Part shown: piece by piece, positions 3,703 through 13,600 of the stretch | Layout of the letters: each line of letters opens with the position of its first letter | How positions within the stretch are numbered: the stretch's first letter is position 1 | DNA from: Thermogemmatispora sp. | GTDB lineage: Bacteria; Chloroflexota; Ktedonobacteria; Ktedonobacterales; Ktedonobacteraceae | Direction of reading: 5' to 3' | Length of the DNA stretch: 32,635 nt | Assembly (NCBI RefSeq): GCF_019683755.1 | Contig: NZ_JADGHT010000011.1 | Span: forward strand, 1-32,635 | The notes under the pieces: generated by a model | The model's input: only the letters and a program-made list of their open reading frames with translations | What the model was told of the DNA's origin: nothing | Databases searched by the model: none | Translations under genes and position numbers: made by a program

Positions 3703-5151
3703 CTAGGGCTGGCCTCTCCCCGGCGCGTGCTCCTGGCGCTGGTGATCAGGATCGCTAAAGTAGAGATCGATCCCCCGCTTCAGGGTCTCTAGCAGCGTCT
3801 GGTAGCGATGCCGCAGTGGGAGCGAGACGCTGTGACCATCCAGCAGGCCCTGCAGGGCCTCAAAAAATTCTAGTTCTTGATGGCCGGTACCTACGCCCGC
3901 GAGACCATTGGCAAGCTGGGCCCGCAGGACTTCTCGCGCGCGCTGCAGGATCACTCGCACCGCTAGACTGGCCTCGGGATGGGCTGTGCAGACGTCGACG
4001 ACCGCTTCGCTGATGAAGGCCAGCATCTCTAGTGTCAGTGCGCCTCTGCTCATGGCACGCATGGCCTGGGTGAGCGGTCGCTCCAGCGCTTCGGCGATTA
4101 AGTCGGCGGCTCGCGGCGCTAACTCTTCCAGTTGCTCGTTGATGCCTTCTTCCTGGAGGTGCTCATGGAGCAGGGCAATCGAGGCCTCCACTTCTTCACG
4201 CTGACCAGGCGGCGCTTGCCAGTCGCTCAGCTCGCGTATGCGTAGAAAGCAGGCCAGCGCCAGGCGCGTCTGATTGAAGAAGGCAAAGAAAATCGCCAGG
4301 TTGCTCAAGATGATGGCTTCGCGCTCCTGGTCGTGGATCTGGCGCGCGAGGCTAAGGGCCTCACGATAGCAGCGCAGGGCCTCTCTGGGCTGCAGACAGG
4401 TCTGATAGAGCTGGCCCAGGCCGCCGAGCGTGAGGGCTAAGAGGGGACGGTCGTTCTCGCGACGGAGCAGGAGCAGCGCCTCCTGATAGTAGGCATGGGC
4501 ACGCTGGATCTGCCCAAGCGAGAAGGAGAGGCAGGCCAGTTTGCTCAGCGTAGCTCCCTGGCCGCGTCGATCGTCGATCTCGTGTTGGATGAGTAGCGCC
4601 TCCTGAAAACACTGTAAGGCCCGCTGGATCTGGCCGTGCTCTTGATAGAAGGTGCCCAGGTTGTTGAGCGTGGTGCCTTGACAGCGACGATTGCCTACTT
4701 CCCGATGAATGGCCAGGGCTTCACGATAGCAGATCAGGGCCTGCTGATCGTGGTGCAGCTCGTGGTAGAGGGTGGCCAGCCGCCCAAGGGTGGTACCTTC
4801 GCCCGGGAGGAAGCCGTTTTCGCGCTGGATATTTAAAGCCTGGCGATAGGCCTGTAAGGCTTGCTCTCGCTGGCCACGCTGTTGATAGAGCGTTCCCAGG
4901 CTACAGAGCGCGTTGGCTTCTTCGATGGGGAGGCCACGCTCGCGGCTGAGGGCCAGCGCTTGCTGATAGTAGTTGCAAGCCTGTTCAAGGTCATGCTCTC
5001 GCTGGAAAAGGAGGCCGAGCCTGAAGAGGCTAGCCATCTCACCATCCCGGTCCCCTTGCGCGCGCTGCCACTCTAGCTGCTGCTGATAGTGCGCAATTGC
5101 TTCACTACGGGTCATCTGACCCGGCTCTTCATTCTCTTGCTCGAACGCCAT
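3703..5151 (-). CDS. TPR-repeat protein (first of two)
   Basis: This is a 482-aa soluble protein. Residues about 35-320 form roughly seven TPR units of the 40-residue TPR_12/LGN type, with repeating signatures such as ALCSLGTLYQQRGQREQAL and TTLNNLGTFYQEHGQIQRAL. The C-terminal 150 residues are helical and not repeat-like. TPR arrays bind peptides or partner proteins, so this is presumably a scaffold or regulator. The start has GAGGAGC about 10 nt upstream. It resembles the neighbouring TPR protein in both repeat style and the last 60 residues (LLDGHSVSLP versus LLEGEPAELP), so the two are probably diverged paralogues. No enzyme domain is visible. It lies next to a cluster of small regulators and may belong to the same circuit. 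Confidence 0.85.
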   Translation of the reverse strand: MAFEQENEEPGQMTRSEAIAHYQQQLEWQRAQGDRDGEMASLFRLGLLFQREHDLEQACNYYQQALALSRERGLPIEEANALCSLGTLYQQRGQREQALQAYRQALNIQRENGFLPGEGTTLGRLATLYHELHHDQQALICYREALAIHREVGNRRCQGTTLNNLGTFYQEHGQIQRALQCFQEALLIQHEIDDRRGQGATLSKLACLSFSLGQIQRAHAYYQEALLLLRRENDRPLLALTLGGLGQLYQTCLQPREALRCYREALSLARQIHDQEREAIILSNLAIFFAFFNQTRLALACFLRIRELSDWQAPPGQREEVEASIALLHEHLQEEGINEQLEELAPRAADLIAEALERPLTQAMRAMSRGALTLEMLAFISEAVVDVCTAHPEASLAVRVILQRAREVLRAQLANGLAGVGTGHQELEFFEALQGLLDGHSVSLPLRHRYQTLLETLKRGIDLYFSDPDHQRQEHAPGRGQP

Positions 5152-5483
5152 TGCTGGCCGCTCCTCTGATGATCTCAGACTAGGGGTCGTTTGACCCGGC
5201 CTCCTTCACGTGCCCGCTGCTCGCTGCCAGGCTGCTCCCGCTCTTCTCGCTCGGTCAGCGCCAGGCGTCAGGCTCGCGCGGGGATAGGCCCAGATGCGTC
5301 TATGCAGCAGGCGCCTGCTCCAGGCGCTGCTCTCAGAAGCTGCTCCCGGCTCCCTGGCGATTGTGCTGCCTGCACTCAGTCTCGGCGCCGCTTCAATCGG
5401 CCCTCCCCGGCTGCTGCTGCAGGCTCTGCTGCCGTCTGCCGCGCTACTGTGAGCAGCTACACGCTTGAGATATACTTGGTGCG

Positions 5484-5504
5484 TAGCTACTTGCTTGGTA
5501 GCTA
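5484..5504. repeat. Paired TAGCTA sites at the TPR promoter
   Basis: Two copies of the palindrome TAGCTA (5484-5489 and 5499-5504) are spaced 15 bp centre to centre, just downstream of the predicted -10 box of the first TPR gene. The position fits a repressor site. No cognate regulator can be named. Confidence 0.35.
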
Positions 5505-5515
5505 TTTCTGTCTTA

Positions 5516-5544
5516 AGTATACAACAAATTTTTCTGGATGGATA
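5516..5544 (-). promoter_or_regulatory. Candidate promoter of the first TPR gene
   Basis: On the minus strand TATACT (5521-5516) sits in the context GTATACTTAA, the same ten bases as at the histidine kinase promoter. The -35 region 17 bp upstream (TATCCA) is weak. If used, the leader to 5151 would be about 350 nt. Confidence 0.4.
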
Positions 5545-5607
5545 TACCTATTGGTCAAGTAGTGAGATGAAGCACATGAAGTGAACACGAGAGTTAGCCC
5601 AAAATGG

Positions 5608-7269
5608 CTAATCTTGCTGATTGCTTGCTATCTGGAAGGCCCTCCAGGCGGTTTGGCCCTTCTGGATAAGGAAGAGCGGCAGGGCATAGGGATGCTCGGG
5701 GGGCAGCTCGGCAGGCTCTCCCTCTAGGAGGGCCAGGAGGGCGGCGTAGAAGTCGGCTGCCGCGGCGCGGGCGCGCTGTTCGGCCTCGTCAGGCGCGCTC
5801 TGGGCCTGGGCCTGGGCCCGCAGGTGCTCTAGTTCGCTCTGCAGGGCCTGCCTCTCTTGGGGCGGACTCTGGTCCGCCAGGGCCAGGCTGATGCGCTCGA
5901 TCAGTGGGCTGAGCTGCTCGGGGGGCAGGATGAGCCGCTCTTGCTGGCTAGGCTCGGGGGGGATGATGCCGGCGATGGTGGCCTCGATCAGGAGGCTGCG
6001 CTCAGATTCGCTGATCTGGCGGATAAAGGCCAAGGCTTCGGGACCAAGTTGGTCGCGGATGGAAGCGATCTCGTCGTCGATGCTGGCGCAGGTGGTGCTG
6101 TCTCCCTGTTCTTCGGCGATGGTGCGCGCCTCGAGGAGGTGGGCCAGGGCGCTCTCTAGCTGGCCGAAGTGGCCGTAGAGGTCGCTGATGGAGCGCAGGG
6201 TGAGGATGAGGCCGGTGGTGTCGCCGCTGCGGGCGCGGCCAAGGAAGGCCCGTCGATAGCGGTCGATGGCCTGAACAGGCTGGCCCAGGTAATGGAAGAA
6301 CTGCCCGAGGGCGTTCCAGCTCATGTATTCGCAGGAGGGGGGCAGGTCGTTGCTCCTGGCCAGGGTCAGGGCCTGCTCGTAGTGGTGGCGGGCGCTCCCG
6401 GTGAGGGCAAGCTGAAAGAGGAGGCCGCCAAGGTCGATGTGGATGGCGAAGAGGCCGAGAGGGTCACTCTGGCTCCCGGCTTGCAGGGTCAGGGCCTGCT
6501 CGTAGGTGGCTCGCGCCTGCAGGAGCTGCCCGCTTTGGTGGTAGACCCCAGCCAGGCTGAGGAGAAAGCCGACTTCGCCTTCACGGTAGCCAAGTCTCCG
6601 GCAGAGGACGCAGGCTTCTTCGTAGAGGCGCCGGGCTTCTTTGTAGTGCTCCTGACGCTCGGCCAGCCGCCCCAGGTCTTTGATGACTATCAGTTCGCGC
6701 TGGAGGGCACCGGCTTGCTGCAGGAGTTGGCGCGCTTGCTGGTAGTGCTGGCGGGCCTCGTCGTAGCGCCCGCGTCGCTCGGCCAGCCGCCCCAGGTTGA
6801 TGAAGGGGACGGCCTCGTTGCTGGGTTCGCCCAGGGCCTGCAGGATCGCAATGGCTTCCTGGTAGGCGGCCTTTGCCTGTTCGTCACGCCCAAGACTTTC
6901 GTAAAGCTGGCCAAGGTTGTGGAGGGTGAAGGCCTGCCCTCGTCGGTCGTTGTGGTGGCGCAGGATGGTCAGGGCTTGCTCGTAAGCGGCTCGCGCGCGC
7001 TCGGGGTCCTCGTCTCTGAGGAGGACGCCAAGGTTGTGAAGGGTGGCAACTTCTCCCTGGGAGTCACCAAGCTGCTGGAAGATGGTCAGGGCCTGCTCGT
7101 ATGAAGTGAGCGCTTGCCCGGGCTGCCCTAGCTGTTGGTAGAGTCCTCCCAGTTCATGGAGGGTGGTCGCCTGGTGCCAGCGATCACCGCTGCGGCGGTG
7201 GTGCTCTAGTTCGCGCTGGCGCTGAGCGATCGCTTGTTCCAGGGCCAGCCTTTCGCCGTCGGTAGTCAT
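5608..7269 (-). CDS. TPR-repeat protein (second of two)
   Basis: This 553-aa protein is counted from the ATG of MTTDGERLALEQ. That start has AAAGGAGC about 7 nt upstream, whereas the ORF-track start at 7491 adds 74 low-complexity Arg/Ser/Pro residues with no ribosome site. About ten TPR units cover residues 10-400, each with a LG.LY...G...A...YE.AL pattern. The region after 420 is helical with a Gln/Ala/Arg-rich coiled-coil stretch and a final hydrophobic LPLFLIQKGQTAW block. It is a likely cytoplasmic scaffold. It is paralogous to the protein at 3703-5151. Its 5' region carries a copy of the duplicated element also found upstream of the first small XRE gene. Several long antisense ORFs here are shadows caused by G+C bias. 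Confidence 0.85.
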   Translation of the reverse strand: MTTDGERLALEQAIAQRQRELEHHRRSGDRWHQATTLHELGGLYQQLGQPGQALTSYEQALTIFQQLGDSQGEVATLHNLGVLLRDEDPERARAAYEQALTILRHHNDRRGQAFTLHNLGQLYESLGRDEQAKAAYQEAIAILQALGEPSNEAVPFINLGRLAERRGRYDEARQHYQQARQLLQQAGALQRELIVIKDLGRLAERQEHYKEARRLYEEACVLCRRLGYREGEVGFLLSLAGVYHQSGQLLQARATYEQALTLQAGSQSDPLGLFAIHIDLGGLLFQLALTGSARHHYEQALTLARSNDLPPSCEYMSWNALGQFFHYLGQPVQAIDRYRRAFLGRARSGDTTGLILTLRSISDLYGHFGQLESALAHLLEARTIAEEQGDSTTCASIDDEIASIRDQLGPEALAFIRQISESERSLLIEATIAGIIPPEPSQQERLILPPEQLSPLIERISLALADQSPPQERQALQSELEHLRAQAQAQSAPDEAEQRARAAAADFYAALLALLEGEPAELPPEHPYALPLFLIQKGQTAWRAFQIASNQQD

Positions 7270-7686
7270 GCGAGGCTGCTCCTTTCTCCAGCTCTGTAGA
7301 GCACGCCTCGGAGTGGATCGCTTCGCTCGCCGGCCAGGTGGCGGCGTGAGGGACGGGCCAGGATGGCGCGCTCCGCTTGGGCTGGCTTGTCCTGTTGTCT
7401 CTCTCTGGCGCCCGCTCGCCTCTTCTGTCACCCAGCGCTGCGCCTCTCGCTGGCCTGCGCTCCGCTCAGTCACCCCAGACAGCATCAGCATTGCGCTGGA
7501 CGACGATCCAGCAAGCAGACGCCCCTTTTCTTCTCTTGTGAAGAGTATACACTATTCGCCAGGGTGTTTGCACGCGATGTCGCTCGCTTGCGCTTCTGCC
7601 CTCCTGTTGCGGCGAGGGTTCTGGAGAGGCCAGCTCTCGCCGCCTGGTGGGCGTTGCGCTGGTGTTGCTCTTTCGCTCGCGCGCTC
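7270..7686. other. Leader of the second TPR gene and space before XRE-1
   Basis: No separate gene is supported. An in-frame extension of the TPR ORF runs to 7491 but looks non-coding. The region holds one copy of the duplicated element (7510-7577). Confidence 0.55.
7510..7577. repeat. Duplicated regulatory element, copy 1
   Basis: About 68 bp are matched at 8143-8209. Two 14-bp boxes are identical in both copies: TGAAGAGTATACAC (7539-7552) and GTGTTTGCACGCGA (7564-7577). They are separated by 11 variable bases here and 10 in the other copy. Read on the minus strand, the first box contains a TATACT -10 motif with TGCAAA 17 bp upstream. The copy lies 110 bp downstream of XRE-1 and upstream of the second TPR gene. 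Confidence 0.6.
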
Positions 7687-7956
7687 CTAATGAGGGGGAC
7701 GCTTGCCTCTGGCTGCCTTGCGCTTGAGCTGCTGCAGTTCTTCTTGCATTTGCTCCCGCGATACGTCTTCGATGAGGGCCGTGACGGGTACGTCCAGCGC
7801 TTCGGCGATGCGATTGAGGGTATAGGTGGAGATCGTTCTATAGGGATTGGCGCAAATACCACGAATAATGTAATAGCTAATTTCCGCTAACATAGAAAGA
7901 CGATGCATTGATATATTTTTCTCTTGAGCTACTTCTTTGACTCGCAGACGTAACAT
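7687..7956 (-). CDS. Small XRE-family regulator, paralogue 1
   Basis: This 89-aa Cro/C1-type helix-turn-helix protein opens with MLRLRVKEVA, as do its two sisters in this window. The HTH covers residues about 1-65: KNISMHRLSMLAEISYYIIR is helix 2-turn-helix 3, then NRIAEALDVPVTALIED. The last 20 residues are charged and basic. It has no sensor domain, so it is probably a dimeric repressor or an antitoxin-like regulator. It starts at ATG behind AGAGGAAT, with a TGCTATGCT extended -10 about 30 nt upstream of the start. It sits in the same orientation as the second TPR gene, about 420 bp upstream of it. Targets are unknown; the duplicated boxes nearby are plausible binding sites. Confidence 0.85.
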   Translation of the reverse strand: MLRLRVKEVAQEKNISMHRLSMLAEISYYIIRGICANPYRTISTYTLNRIAEALDVPVTALIEDVSREQMQEELQQLKRKAARGKRPPH

Positions 7957-7985
7957 GCATTCCTCTCAACTTTCCAGCCATGCAG

Positions 7986-7994
7986 AGCATAGCA
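7986..7994 (-). promoter_or_regulatory. Extended -10 promoter of XRE-1
   Basis: TGCTATGCT on the minus strand (7994-7986) is an extended -10 element ending 29 nt before the ATG. XRE-2 has TGGTATGCT at nearly the same distance, which supports both. No good -35 box is present. Confidence 0.5.
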
Positions 7995-8142
7995 CGCGGT
8001 GAATGAGGCGCTCCTCCGCGGCTGGCCCCCTCATCCACCTCTGTGTCTGGCCGCTTCACGCTTTCTAACAGTAGTGGACCGTCGGCGCCTGCCCACCGTT
8101 GAGGTCGCCAGGCCACACGCCAGCCGCCACCAGCGATGGCTA

Positions 8143-8209
8143 AGCAAGCAAGCGCTTCTTTTCTACTGTTATGAAGAGTATACACCATTGTCAGAGTGTT
8201 TGCACGCGA
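8143..8209. repeat. Duplicated regulatory element, copy 2
   Basis: This is the second copy of the element at 7510-7577. The identical boxes lie at 8172-8185 and 8196-8209. It is 94 bp downstream of XRE-2 and about 150 bp upstream of the XRE-1 promoter. The left 28-bp flank still matches at 21 positions, whereas most of the surrounding intergenic DNA has diverged. Confidence 0.6.
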
Positions 8210-8302
8210 GCGCACGTCTTTTGGCTTATTCTCTCTCACTGCGCCAGCCTTGGGGCAATTGGTTGACCGGATGTCCATCATTGCTCATCTATCGTCAAGC
8301 GT

Positions 8303-8572
8303 TCAATCAGGCTCAGTCTCATACTCGGACGATTTCCTTTTGAGGCGCTGTCGCTCCTTTTCAGCCTGCTCCCGCGGGACATCTTCGATGATCTCGGTGA
8401 CGGGCACGCCCAGCGCTTCAGCGATGCGATTGATTGTGTCCGAGGAGACCGGTTTGTAGGGATCAACAAAGATCTCGCGAATGACGTGATAGCTGAGCTG
8501 TGCTTGCAGAGAAAGTCTATGCATTGACATTCTCTTTGCTAAGGCAACTTCTTTAACGCGCAGGCGCAGCAA
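8303..8572 (-). CDS. Small XRE-family regulator, paralogue 2
   Basis: This 89-aa Cro/C1-type helix-turn-helix protein is the closest relative of XRE-1: same length, same MLRLRVKEVA start, and a shared GVPVTEIIEDVPREQ segment. The recognition region is RMSMHRLSLQAQLSYHVIR. It starts at TTG with a strong GGAGGAA site about 6 nt upstream. An AGCATA (minus TATGCT) extended -10 sits 27 nt before the start. The rare start codon suggests low, buffered expression. The tail is acidic (SSEYETEPD), unlike the basic tail of XRE-1, so partner specificity may differ. It is divergent from the 134-aa gene on the plus strand. Confidence 0.85.
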   Translation of the reverse strand: MLRLRVKEVALAKRMSMHRLSLQAQLSYHVIREIFVDPYKPVSSDTINRIAEALGVPVTEIIEDVPREQAEKERQRLKRKSSEYETEPD

Positions 8573-8599
8573 GCTGGTTCCTCCACCTGTTTTTTTCTT

Positions 8600-8608
8600 A
8601 GCATACCA
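8600..8608 (-). promoter_or_regulatory. Extended -10 promoter of XRE-2
   Basis: TGGTATGCT on the minus strand (8608-8600) precedes an A-rich initial transcribed stretch and ends 27 nt before the TTG start. The -35 region is weak. Confidence 0.5.
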
Positions 8609-8661
8609 GCCAGTCGCTACACAGGTAATTCCACTTCTTGGTATCTCCTTGAAAGGATATA

Positions 8662-8690
8662 TTTACAAATTGATACTTTGAAGATATAAT
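8662..8690 (+). promoter_or_regulatory. Strong promoter of the 134-aa gene
   Basis: TTTACA (8662-8667), a 17-bp spacer and TATAAT (8685-8690) form one of the best housekeeping-type promoters in the window. It is divergent from XRE-2. Transcription would start near 8697, leaving a leader of about 75 nt. Confidence 0.7.
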
Positions 8691-8770
8691 TTGGATGGGT
8701 TAAGGCTAATCCCAAGCACAAGCAAGGGATTGGAAGAAAGTGTCATCTTGCCGCAACAGAAAGGAAGTGC

Positions 8771-9175
8771 ATGATGAAGGAGGGGCAACGGGGGGAGAAG
8801 CGGGTGATGATGGGAATTGGGGCCGATGACCTCAAAGCCATCAAGTACATCCTGCTCTTCCACGGGCGCTATCTCCAGAGCGGTCAGGCTGATCAGGCGC
8901 GGCCAGCGGTAGATGAGCGTCGCATCAATCAGATCCAGCTTGCGCTGCTCAAGATCGAGCAGATTCTCAGCGGGCAGGTCATCATGCTGAGCTGGGAAGA
9001 GTTGCGGCTGATCACCGAGGCCATTGCCGCCTTTACGCGGCTGGTACGAGGCAAGATCGCCGCCACGCAGGAGCGCGATCAGGTCCTGGCGAGCTGTGAG
9101 CAACTGCGTGGCTATTTGAGCCTGATTTTGCCGCCCATGCAGTCGACCCGGAAAGGAGGTGAGAGCAGCTCCTGA
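8771..9175 (+). CDS. Unknown helical protein, 134 aa
   Basis: I do not recognise this protein. It is soluble and predicted mostly helical, with heptad-like stretches such as INQIQLALLKIEQILSG and LRLITEAIAAFTRLVRGKI. There are no Cys pairs, membrane spans or catalytic motifs. The first ATG is followed by a second ATG, with AAGGAAG a few bases upstream. A start at residue 12 or 13, behind GGGGGGAG, is also possible and would remove a Gly/Arg/Lys-rich lead. It is driven by a very good promoter and followed 12 bp after the stop by a 15-bp inverted repeat, so it is a single-gene unit. It sits between two of the three XRE paralogues and could be part of their circuit. Confidence 0.7.
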   Translation: MMKEGQRGEKRVMMGIGADDLKAIKYILLFHGRYLQSGQADQARPAVDERRINQIQLALLKIEQILSGQVIMLSWEELRLITEAIAAFTRLVRGKIAATQERDQVLASCEQLRGYLSLILPPMQSTRKGGESSS

Positions 9176-9685
9176 AGCTCGGCTACTGAAGAGGGGCCTT
9201 CTGGCAACCCTTCTCTCTCTCTATCCCTGTTCTTGCGCTGGCGACCTGCATCCCCTACCTGTTGGCCTGCCTGCCAAAGAGCGAGAAGGCCCCTCTTCTC
9301 TGCTCTCCGCCTGCAACTGTCTGACGCAAGGTAGCGGTGGCAGAGCTTCCGCGGGATGGCGTGAGTGGGCGCGTCGACTCGAGCCGGCGCGGGTGGACCA
9401 CGCACGTCATCCTTTGGCCAGGCCCGGTCAGGGCTGCGGCCTTCGCTGTTGTTTCCCTCGCCCCGATGGCCAGGTAAGAGCAAGCTGGCGGCTGAGACAG
9501 TCAACGACAGCGCCTGTGCGTTTGCCGCCCTCGCCTTGTGCTGTCCGTGCTGGCTGGCTGACCTCCTCTATCCTATGAGGGCCTGCCTGCGCTGGCCCGC
9601 CTTTGGCAGAGCGGCGCGTCGCCGCTCCCCTTCAAGTTAAGAGCCTGGCTGATTGAGTTGAGGCGCTGGGCGTGGACCCCTCTGT
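9176..9685. other. Gene-free stretch between the 134-aa gene and XRE-3
   Basis: No coding sequence is supported; the overlapping ORFs have no ribosome sites and random composition. The first 125 bp hold the long inverted repeat at 9188-9298. I see nothing definable in the rest. Confidence 0.55.
9188..9298. terminator. Wide-loop 15-bp inverted repeat after the 134-aa gene
   Basis: GAAGAGGGGCCTTCT (9188-9202) and its exact reverse complement (9284-9298) are separated by 81 nt. The first arm begins 12 bp after the stop codon. There is no T tract, so this is not a textbook intrinsic terminator. A small terminal-inverted-repeat element is an alternative, but I see no flanking target duplication. 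Confidence 0.5.
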
Positions 9686-9985
9686 TTACGCCGGGGACCG
9701 GCTCTGCTGGCGAGGCTGGCGCCCGGGCCGGCGCGGTATGGCCAGTTCTGCCGCCAGGGCGAGCTGCTCGCGCGCCATGTCTTCCTCTGAAACATCCTCC
9801 ATGAGGGCGGTCGTTGGCACCCCCAAGGCTCGCGCCAGGCGGTTGACGGTGGCGGTATTGGTGGGCCGATAAGGATTGCGATAAATGGCCTTAATGATGT
9901 TATAGCTGACTCCAGCACAATGTGATAGCTGGTTCATTGACAGTCCCTTCTCACGTGCGACCTCTTTCAAGCGCAGCCGAAGCAC
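9686..9985 (-). CDS. Small XRE-family regulator, paralogue 3, divergent from the TIR operon
   Basis: This 99-aa Cro/C1-type helix-turn-helix protein is homologous to XRE-1 and XRE-2 (MLRLRLKEVA, NPYRP, GVPTTALMEDVSEED). The recognition region is GLSMNQLSHCAGVSYNIIK. It has a longer, strongly basic Arg/Gln/Pro-rich tail that could bind nucleic acid nonspecifically. It starts at GTG behind GAGGAGAG, so the three paralogues use ATG, TTG and GTG respectively. It shares its upstream region with the small ORF/TIR-STAND operon on the other strand, so it is the natural candidate for that operon's repressor and for autoregulation. The family is clear; the regulatory role is inferred from position. Confidence 0.85.
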   Translation of the reverse strand: MLRLRLKEVAREKGLSMNQLSHCAGVSYNIIKAIYRNPYRPTNTATVNRLARALGVPTTALMEDVSEEDMAREQLALAAELAIPRRPGRQPRQQSRSPA

Positions 9986-10017
9986 GGTTCTCTCCTCAGA
10001 TGCAAGCTATTTCCGAC

Positions 10018-10023
10018 AGTATA
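10018..10023 (-). promoter_or_regulatory. -10 box of XRE-3
   Basis: TATACT on the minus strand (10023-10018) ends 32 nt before the GTG start, the same geometry as at XRE-1 and XRE-2. No convincing -35 box is present, so activation or an alternative sigma factor is possible. Confidence 0.45.
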
Positions 10024-10095
10024 GCGCAAGCGTCGCCTTTAGGGAAGACTTTTGTGAAAAAGCAGCATCCTCCGCAGCAAAGTACTGACTGCTTT

Positions 10096-10121
10096 CTTTG
10101 TATGCTCTACCATATACAAGG
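10096..10121. promoter_or_regulatory. Inverted repeat between divergent XRE-3 and TIR promoters
   Basis: CTTTGTAT (10096-10103) and ATACAAGG (10114-10121) are inverted copies with one mismatch and are spaced 18 bp centre to centre. They end 15 bp before the -35 box of the TIR operon. Size and place suit a dimeric HTH operator. Binding by XRE-3 is a guess. Confidence 0.45.
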
Positions 10122-10135
10122 GACCAGTATTATGG

Positions 10136-10164
10136 ATGACGCGAGCTGTATTTTATGGTATACT
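10136..10164 (+). promoter_or_regulatory. Promoter of the small ORF/TIR-STAND operon
   Basis: ATGACG (10136-10141) has four of six -35 matches. After 17 bp comes TATACT (10159-10164), preceded by TGG, which makes an extended -10. Transcription would start near 10171, about 100 nt before the small ORF. Confidence 0.6.
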
Positions 10165-10271
10165 CGCAGAAGAAGCGGGCAGCTTTGTAAGACAAGAGCA
10201 GCGAGCTGCCTCGTCTCTGGGGAAAGCCCACAGGCGTGGGTCAGCCGCTGGCAGAAAGGAAGCGCGCCATC

Positions 10272-10517
10272 ATGGAAGCGGAGCCGAGTCAGCTATTTTG
10301 TCCCGACGCCTACCCAGATAACGCCGACTGGACAAAGCGCACCTGGGACCTGCCAGAGATCACCAGCCCCGAGAAGCTGGACGCCTATCTCGAGAGCACC
10401 GGGCTGTCGGCCCAAGCCTTTGCCTGCCTTCCGGTCTGTCGTTGGAACGTCTCCAAGATCCCCTGGTTACGCGACTGGTTGCTGAGTCATGGGTTGCCCG
10501 TGCCGCCCGAGAGCTGA
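10272..10517 (+). CDS. Small protein of unknown function upstream of the TIR-STAND gene
   Basis: I do not recognise this 81-aa protein. The chosen ATG (MEAEPSQLFC) has AAAGGA about 12 nt upstream; a GTG 12 codons earlier (10236) is also open. It is acidic and Trp-rich, with three Cys (LFCPDAYP, AFACLPVCRW). A helix-like ITSPEKLDAYLESTGLSAQAF stretch resembles a short helical bundle, and the tail ends in a Pro-rich stretch. It lies 100 bp before the 1526-aa gene on the same strand, behind the only good promoter, so the two are probably co-transcribed. It could be a partner, sensor or inhibitor of the TIR protein, but nothing in the sequence proves it. Confidence 0.6.
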   Translation: MEAEPSQLFCPDAYPDNADWTKRTWDLPEITSPEKLDAYLESTGLSAQAFACLPVCRWNVSKIPWLRDWLLSHGLPVPPES

Positions 10518-10617
10518 GAGCGCTGGCCAGGCCCGTCACCAGGCAGCGCAGAGCGCAGCCGGATCGCCTGGCCAGGTTCATAAGCTGGGATCAGGCTGAG
10601 GAGGCAGGAGGAGCAGC

Positions 10618-13600
10618 ATGCAAGCCGAGAGCCGAGCCAATTGGGGCCTGCGCGTCTACATCAGCCATGCCAGCGCGGAACGCAACTGGAGCGAGCATAT
10701 CGAGAGACGGGTAAGGCTGGCCGCGCGGGCCGCGGGCCTGGAGGCCCCGCACATCAGCGGGCCAGGAAAGGTACTGGCTGGCAGCGACTATCAGCAGGCC
10801 AGACGTGCCGCCCTTGAGAGCGCCAATCTCATTCTGCTCCTGATCAGCCCCGACTTTCTCACCGACGACCAGTGTCTGCAAGAAATGGAGATAGCCCTGG
10901 CGCGGCGGCGCGAGCGTGAGGTCACAGTTGTCCCCATCATTGTGCGTCCCGTGAGCTGGGAGCATACCCCACTTGGTGAGCTAGAAGCCTTGCCGCCGGG
11001 CCAGCCGCCCAAAGCCCTCAGCCTCTGGCGACCGCGCGACGAAGGACTCCATCGCATTGAGGAGGAACTACGCCGCCTCCTGAGCGCGCAGCGTTGGCGC
11101 GAGGGTTCTACCAGGGCCGGTCAGCTTGCGCCCGAGCAAGCGCGGGCCGTGCGCGCCATGCTCGTCGACCATCGTCCCTTTATCGCCAGCCGTGTCCGGG
11201 GATTTGTTGGCCGCAGCGCCGAGCTAGCCGCCATCCGCCGGCACATCGCCGAACTACAGCCGGGCGGCGGCTACCTGATCATCAGCGGGCAGGCTGGCCA
11301 GGGCAAAAGCAGCCTCATTGCCCGTCTGGTCCAGGAAGAGGGACCGGAGCGTGTGCCCCATCACTTCCTGCCGCTGGACCCGCCGAGCGATCACGTCGTA
11401 GCCTTGCTGCGCGACCTGCTGGCGCGCCTGATTCTCGCCGAATCTCTTGACCCGACGCCCTTACTGTTGGCCGGGACCAGTCGCGCCACCCTCACCACAG
11501 CCTTCTGGAACCTGCTCAACGAGCTGGGCGAGGCCGGGAAGCCTGTACTGATCTGCATCGACGGCCTTGACCAACTTCCGCGCTCGCCCTTCGGCAAGCG
11601 CGACCTGAGCTTTCTCCCCCTGAGACCCCCGCCGGGCTGCGTCTTCGTTCTCGGCAGCCGGCCCGATGACACGCTGGAGGCCCTTCACCAGCGCGGACCT
11701 GAGCGTGAGTACAGTCTGCCCCCTCTCAGCCGGGCCGACTTTGAGCAGCTTCTGCGGGCGCGCGGCCTGCAGCTCACGCGCGTCGAAGGCGACCGCCTCT
11801 ATGCCCTGACAGAGCAGAACACGCTCTACCTCGACCTGGCTGCCCGCGAGCTGGCGAGCGACCCAGCCCTGACCCCGCAAGCCTTGAGCGCGCGTCTCTC
11901 CAGCAATCCCGCCAACCTCTTTACCCTGAGCATCGAGCGTCTCAAGCAAGATCCCCATTGGGAGCGCACCATCTACCCCTTGCTGGGTCTGCTGCTCGTC
12001 GCGCGCGAGCCACTGGGACCATCTCACCTGAGCGATATTTTGGCTCCCCTCCCAACCTATCAGGTGCGCGACGCCTTGCGGCAGCTCGGTGGCCTGCTCG
12101 TCAGCGACAGCAATGGGCACTACAGCCTCTTCCACTCCAAGCTACGCGACTATCTGCGTCAGGACCCCCAACAGCCGGGCAAGCCGTACCTCTTCACGGT
12201 CGCCGAAGAGGCGCATTGGCATCGCATACTGGCCGACTGGTGTGAGCGTGGCGGCAGTGAGCTGATCTGGCAAGAGGCGCGTCACGATCCTGACGAGGAC
12301 CGGCGTCGGAGCTACGCCCGGCAGCACCTGGCGGCCCACCTCTTCTACGGGCGGGCCTGGGAGCGTCTCTTTGCTCTACTCGACGCCGGTCGCTATGGCC
12401 AGCGCAAGATTCACGAGCTTGATCCGAGCACCCGCGCCTACGCTGACGATCTTGACCTGGGACGCCAGGCCGCGGCCTGGGAGGGCTGGAGCTTCAGCGA
12501 GGGCCTGGCCCAGCTTCCCCGCCTGTGGCGCTACACCTTTTTGCGCTGCAGCCTGAGCAGTCAGGCTGAGCGCTATCCGCCGCAAGCCTTCGCCCTGCTC
12601 GTTCAGCTTGGGCGGCAGCATGAGGCGCTTGGGCTGAGCGATCTCATCAGCGATCCCGGGCGTCGGCTAGAGGCCCTGGTAGCCATCGCGCGCCAGCTCC
12701 AGGAGCAGGGAGCGCCGGAGGAAGACTATGGGCCGCTCTACTGGCGCGCCTGCGATGTGGCGCGCCATAGCTACGAGCCGGATCGTCTGGCCCCCTTACT
12801 GAGCGAGCTGGCGGAGGATCTCTACAGGGCCGGCTGGCGAGAATCGGCCCTCCAGCTCTGGCGGACAGCCATCGACGTGGCACGGCGCATTCCCCTGGCC
12901 GAGCCATGCGCAGAGACCCTCTTAGAGATCGCCCAAGGGCTGGCCGAAGCCGGACAGAGCGACGAGATCGAGGAGATCATCGAAGTCATGCCCGCCGAGA
13001 CCCTGCAGAACGAAGCGCGTCAGGCCCTGGTCACCGCCCTGGCACGGTCCCAGCGCTGGAGCGACGCCGATCAGGCGCTGGTCACCATCCCCGAAGAGGC
13101 TGCTGGAGCACGCGTCGCCGCCCTGGCCGAGCTAGGGCGCGCACTGGCCCAGGCTGGCGAGCAAGAGCGAGCGCAATCCTTATGGCAGCAGGCCGAGCGG
13201 CTGGCCATGACCATAGCCTTTCCCTGGGAGCAGGCCAGCGCCTTAGTCAGACTGGTGCAAGCTCTGGCCAGTGCTCAGCGCTGGAGCGAGGCCAAGCGCC
13301 TCTGTGAGAGCATTCCCGACCGGTGGCAGCGGGGTGAAGCACAGCTAGTACTGGTGCGCGCGCTGGTCAGCGCCGCCCGCTGGCAGGAAGCAGAAGCCCT
13401 CTGCCAGCAGATCAACGACCAGGGCCAGGAGGCCGAGGCCCGTCTGAGCCTGGTTCAGGCCCTGATCGCTGCCGGGCGCTGGCAGGAGGCCGAGGCCCTG
13501 AGCAGCAGCATCACGCGCCCGCGCGAGCGTTTGCAGGCCCTGGCCGCGCTTGGCCAGGCGCATGCCGAGCGTGGTCAGGCGAGCGCAGCGCGGTGCCTCT

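Follow-up and report, generated by a model that had tools for sequence, protein, structure and literature searches.

The window, by which we mean the whole 32,635-nt stretch of Thermogemmatispora DNA analysed here, contains an array of XRE genes on its minus strand. The order on that strand is XRE-3, XRE-2, an intergenic element termed P2, XRE-1, a related element termed P1, a gene for a TPR-repeat protein and a second TPR gene (Table 1). XRE-1 and XRE-2 share 70% nucleotide identity over 235 nt and lie at a spacing of 616; orthologues of XRE-1 are found in T. carboxidivorans (84%), among others. Much of this gene order is retained in the congeners with contigs spanning the region. In congeners, the second TPR gene possesses its own conserved promoter-like box, GGTGTATACTAAGAAAGAAATAG, with a -10 similar to that of P1 and P2 (L094 ~1820-1850, L090 ~990-1030). 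Two genes of the locus lie on the plus strand. The product of the larger harbors an N-terminal TIR domain (ThsB-like, PADLOC E=2.8e-20), an AAA/NACHT domain and TPR-like repeats, and appears to resemble TIR-STAND defence proteins. Over its N-terminal 600 residues, it shares 74-79% identity with the proteins found at the syntenic place in the five congeners examined, without exception. The 134-residue protein, ~70% identical in the same five species, has no match in Pfam, PADLOC or NCBIfam; its gene is preceded by a strong consensus promoter (TTTACA, 17 bp, TATAAT, 11/12) at 8662-8690 on the plus strand.

Table 1. Genes and predicted promoter elements of the XRE array (positions in the window).
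Feature	Position	Strand	Evidence or remark
TIR-NACHT/AAA-TPR protein, 1526 aa	10618-15198	+	
XRE-3	9985-9686	-	
134-aa protein	8771-9175	+	
XRE-2, 89 aa, HTH_26 (Cro/C1-type)	8303..8572	-	Pfam PF13443, E=9.7e-7
P2	8204-8144	-	
P2 -35-like hexamer TGCAAA, 16 bp from -10	8199..8204	-	Sequence; TGCA/TGTA core kept in aligned copies
P2 -10 TATACT, inside GGTGTATACTCTTCA	8177..8182	-	Six-species alignment: invariant save TATAAT in G4
P2 predicted RNA start	near 8170-8172	-	
P2 conserved initial stretch of predicted transcript, AGAAAAGAAGCGCTTGCTTGC	8144..8164	-	Locus-only pattern matches; top conservation window
XRE-1, 89 aa, HTH_26	7687..7956	-	Pfam PF13443, E=2.7e-7; first gene after P2
P1	7572-7511	-	
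P1 -35-like hexamer TGCAAA, 17 bp from -10	7567..7572	-	Sequence; aligned copies
P1 -10 TATACT	7544..7549	-	TATACT kept in G1, G3, G4 and G5 P1 copies
P1 predicted RNA start	near 7537-7539	-	
P1 initial stretch of predicted transcript, AGAAAAGGGGCGTCTGCTTGC	7511..7531	-	
TPR-repeat protein	5608..7269	-	ATG start 7269; TPR_12 E=2.4e-47; first gene after P1
Second TPR gene	5151-3703	-	

The original prediction described P1 and P2 as a duplicated element with two invariant 14-bp boxes, and both boxes are indeed identical in the two copies: box 1 (TGAAGAGTATACAC) at 7539-7552 and 8172-8185, and box 2 (GTGTTTGCACGCGA) at 7564-7577 and 8196-8209. The boxes are 11 bases apart in the 7539 copy and 10 in the 8172 copy, and the similarity of the copies continues leftward to 7510 and 8143 (47 nt, 83%). 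In pattern searches, from which all genome-wide motif statistics given here are drawn, the 4.9-Mb assembly yielded two matches to the two-box pattern and none to its reversed control. The stretches 7539-7577 and 8172-8209 are the only full copies of the repeat in the window genome. A dispersed repeat or mobile element was rejected on these grounds, both full copies lying here and the genus-wide matches to the leader (at most one mismatch) all falling within this locus. The placement of the boxes ~100 bp 3' of XRE genes was also correct (93 bp from the end of XRE-2 at 8303, 109 bp from that of XRE-1 at 7687). The copies matter, however, for the gene that follows each of them, to which they are 5' elements, and not for the XRE gene that precedes them.

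Six Thermogemmatispora species were compared, namely the window genome (W) and five congeners, G1-G5 (G001-G005), the closest named relative being T. carboxidivorans PM5. Copies are designated by the suffix _1 for P1 and _2 for P2 (e.g., W_1, G4_2). The element was found in all five congeners, which brings the total to 11 copies with the two of the window. They were aligned on the minus strand and occupy syntenic positions in the XRE array, adjoining XRE genes; G2 contributes one copy, the only one on its assembled contigs. At the genus level, the two boxes fare differently. Box 1 is conserved as part of a longer block comprising box 1 and the sequence to its left (7510-7552 and 8143-8185), and it is this block that is selected, whereas box 2 is not maintained. 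In the nine copies outside the window genome, it displays 3 to 7 mismatches out of 14, some counted at the best-fitting and others at a fixed spacing, and only its TGCA/TGTA core persists, at the -35 position. The minus-strand consensus is a TGCAnA-like hexamer, 16-17 bp, GGTGTATACTCTTCA, n5 and GnAGAAAAGAAGCGnnTGCTTGC.

The strength of this conservation was estimated on a 416-column alignment of the gap between XRE-2 and XRE-1, in which P2 lies, from all six species. The 43-column block has 34 invariant columns, as compared with at most 24 (mean 9.8) in non-overlapping windows of the same alignment and a maximum of 27 in 5000 column permutations. Pairwise identity ranges from 79 to 100% within the block and from 50 to 91% outside it. 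The P1 and P2 leaders are alignable genus-wide; the flanking DNA is alignable inside each orthologous group, whereas flanks of P1 do not align with those of P2. Of note, the same gap holds a second conserved patch, GACATCCGnTCAAC (8256-8302, minus strand), directly 3' of the XRE-2 stop, which in congeners can pair with an upstream TTGAGCG (~30 nt loop) and has no T-run. The gap downstream of XRE-2 is 91% identical outside the block between G005 and G001, and yet the HTH half of XRE-2 itself clearly differs (L094:3851-4084 and L089:3481-3714, respectively), which suggests that XRE-2 has been replaced by recombination.

The two copies are probably paralogous promoters of the sigma-70 type on the minus strand; we infer transcription and its starts from sequence, and this confidence covers the promoter reading and excludes the operator discussed below. 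The minus-strand promoter initially proposed (TGCAAA, 16-17 bp, TATACT) is well supported by the conservation in five congeners, the -10 pattern, the spacer and the orientation of the copies towards genes. The -10 hexamer is TATACT in 10 of the 11 copies and TATAAT in the remaining one (G4_2, T. carboxidivorans), so that its variation is towards the consensus only. The -35 hexamers are TGCAAA, TGCACA, TGTACA, TGCATT and TGCAAT, located 16-17 bp from the -10 in the copies counted. They match TTGACA at 3 or 4 positions out of 6 where counted, below the scan threshold, and neither P1 nor P2 was listed by a plain consensus promoter scan. P2 precedes XRE-1 in all six species, with a leader of ~215 nt in the window. 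P1 precedes the TPR gene in W, G1 and G5 (orthologues at 55% in G1 and 63% in G5), with a leader of ~270 nt in the window. In G3 and G4, no TPR orthologue was detected directly after P1 by this search, and a different TPR gene is found further on; their P1 copies contain one extra base, which is consistent with a weaker constraint in these two species. A promoter on the plus strand was rejected from the sequence: the TATACA of that strand is replaced by TATAGA in G3_1, and a TTCTTT-like hexamer stands 17 bp upstream of it.

Box 1 also occurs beyond the array. With up to two mismatches, TGAAGAGTATACAC has 127 matches over the six genomes against 50 for the reversed control, and exceeds its control in each of the six. 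Box 2 alone, likewise allowed up to two mismatches, is no commoner than its control (25 matches against 31). Similar boxes, TTGTATACTCTTCA and GTGTATACTCTACA, are found in several species 78-96 bp before DedA-like and ArsC/LMW-phosphatase-like genes, as named from their translated starts. Near-identical -10 boxes before unrelated genes imply that the -10 box of P1 and P2 is an ordinary one, and it looks like a -10 and start region in general use within the genus. P1 and P2 share with sigma-70-type (RpoD/SigA) housekeeping promoters the TATACT/TATAAT -10, the 16-17 bp spacer and, in the window, copies that face genes. They depart from them by their TGCAnA-like -35, with 3-4 of 6 positions matching the consensus, and by a conservation that reaches 25-35 nt into the predicted transcript. 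Of the original prediction, the promoter half is supported, and the two selected boxes give way to one longer block that includes box 1, with the strongest conservation running past the predicted start, into AGAAAAGAAGCGnnTGCTTGC. A plain promoter needs no conservation from +10 to +35, and the promoter model by itself leaves that of P1 and P2 unexplained.

The identity of GTGTTTGCACGCGA between the window's two copies is quite possibly, at somewhat less than even chances, the outcome of an exchange that took place locally and recently between P1 and P2 in this lineage, and not of long-term selection. Over the -35/spacer stretch, the best score of W_1 is with W_2 (14, against 5-7 with P1 of other species); over the -10/leader stretch, its best partner is the P1 copy G1_1 (34, compared with 26 for W_2). 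A box 2 close to that of W_2 next to a leader close to that of G1 P1 fits exchange or chance better than long selection. The compared stretch is, however, very short, and chance or a shared -35 constraint would likewise raise the similarity.

As to the stretch beyond the predicted start, it may tentatively be viewed as an operator for XRE-1 and XRE-2, through which these would be autoregulated and the TPR gene would come under the same control. The two copies flank genes of Cro/C1-type HTH proteins in species of the genus, and the 21-nt AGAAAAGAAGCGnnTGCTTGC is locus-specific, all its matches with at most one mismatch in the six genomes falling at P1 or P2. Furthermore, the conserved block overlaps the -10 and the start, where a repressor would act, and the -10 is embedded in a near-palindrome of sequence GnGTATACnC. 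Cro/C1-type proteins are known from autoregulated operator-promoters such as those of phage cI/cro and PBSX Xre. P1 and P2 resemble these in that a promoter region adjoins genes of small HTH proteins and neighbouring genes may be controlled jointly, but do not display clear repeated palindromic operators. The leader GAAGCGnnTGCTTGC is asymmetric, without a good dyad, and its short AAGC-N4-GCTT core is altered in W_1 and G1_1. Moreover, the region upstream of XRE-2 itself lacks the block, which is also missing from the genus's second XRE locus and from family-level XRE loci; its score at these other loci is near shuffle level.

Alternatively, the stretch could act as RNA, affecting stability or elongation, through a 5' hairpin (AAGAAGC-GYYU-GCUU-G-CU) or a longer stem with the downstream GAGCGAGCGC, which seems unlikely. 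The small helix has standard pairs in 97% of cells, and of its four kinds of change three remain paired as G-U, but no pair is changed on both sides, its folding energy is not clearly below that of shuffles, and the copies entering these statistics are not independent. The complementarity between leader and downstream sequence, summed over copies, amounts to 295 as compared with 238 (sd 10) in shuffles. However, the leaders pair equally well with the downstream DNA of other copies as with their own, which fits the GCGAGCGA/GCTTGCTT repeats common in these intergenic regions; despite its excess over shuffles, the long stem was rejected, own partners displaying no co-evolution. As in riboswitch- or attenuator-type leaders, a ~215-270 nt leader has a conserved first part; unlike in these, the 5' hairpin shows no compensatory pairs, the remaining leader is unconserved, and Rfam gave no match up to E=1 within 5000-11000. 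The pairing is compatible with a hairpin, short of proof, and an operator for the XRE proteins would be a more economical idea than an RNA hairpin or stem. It is highly improbable that the block encodes a conserved small protein (GTG TAT ACT CTT CA., VYTLHxxRKExxAC). Its first residues are open in 9 of the 11 copies, several with ATG or GTG at the same place, but this reading was rejected because one inserted base breaks the frame in the two others, G3_1 and G4_1, the latter then stopping at once. Besides, the changes are mostly non-synonymous and the end of the frame ranges from an immediate stop to open.

Under the promoter reading, the following scheme can be proposed. The element copies lie 633 apart and the two XRE genes 616, so that a single duplication probably took in gene and element together. 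The unit concerned, an XRE gene with the promoter behind it, would have been copied in tandem before the species of Thermogemmatispora diverged. RNA starting near 8170 at P2 would read XRE-1, and RNA starting near 7537 at P1 the TPR gene. Selection would retain the -10 and the degenerate -35 together with the start region and the initial 25-35 nt of RNA, leaving the remainder of the leader to drift. The conserved transcript start might then serve as a shared control site keeping both units co-regulated, most plausibly as a start-overlapping operator bound by the array's own XRE proteins. That AGAAAAGAAGCGnnTGCTTGC is a genus-specific control site common to two promoters per genome, by which the XRE array co-regulates itself and the adjacent TPR gene, is a doubtful proposal, of which no earlier description was found. 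The literature searched contained nothing relevant on Thermogemmatispora promoters or XRE genes, nor a transcript map for this group.

Overall, P1 and P2 are elements of an ordinary kind, apart from one conserved stretch that the promoter model does not account for. They provide a small, testable set of conserved predicted promoters, whose TATACT/TATAAT -10 is shared with unrelated genes, and they mark a paired control point in a cassette that is itself conserved and comprises XRE, TPR and TIR-NACHT/AAA proteins. The part of chief interest is the conserved transcript start: if the proposed AGAAAAGAAGCGnnTGCTTGC control is true, it would act within a conserved cassette that also holds the TIR-NACHT/AAA-TPR protein.
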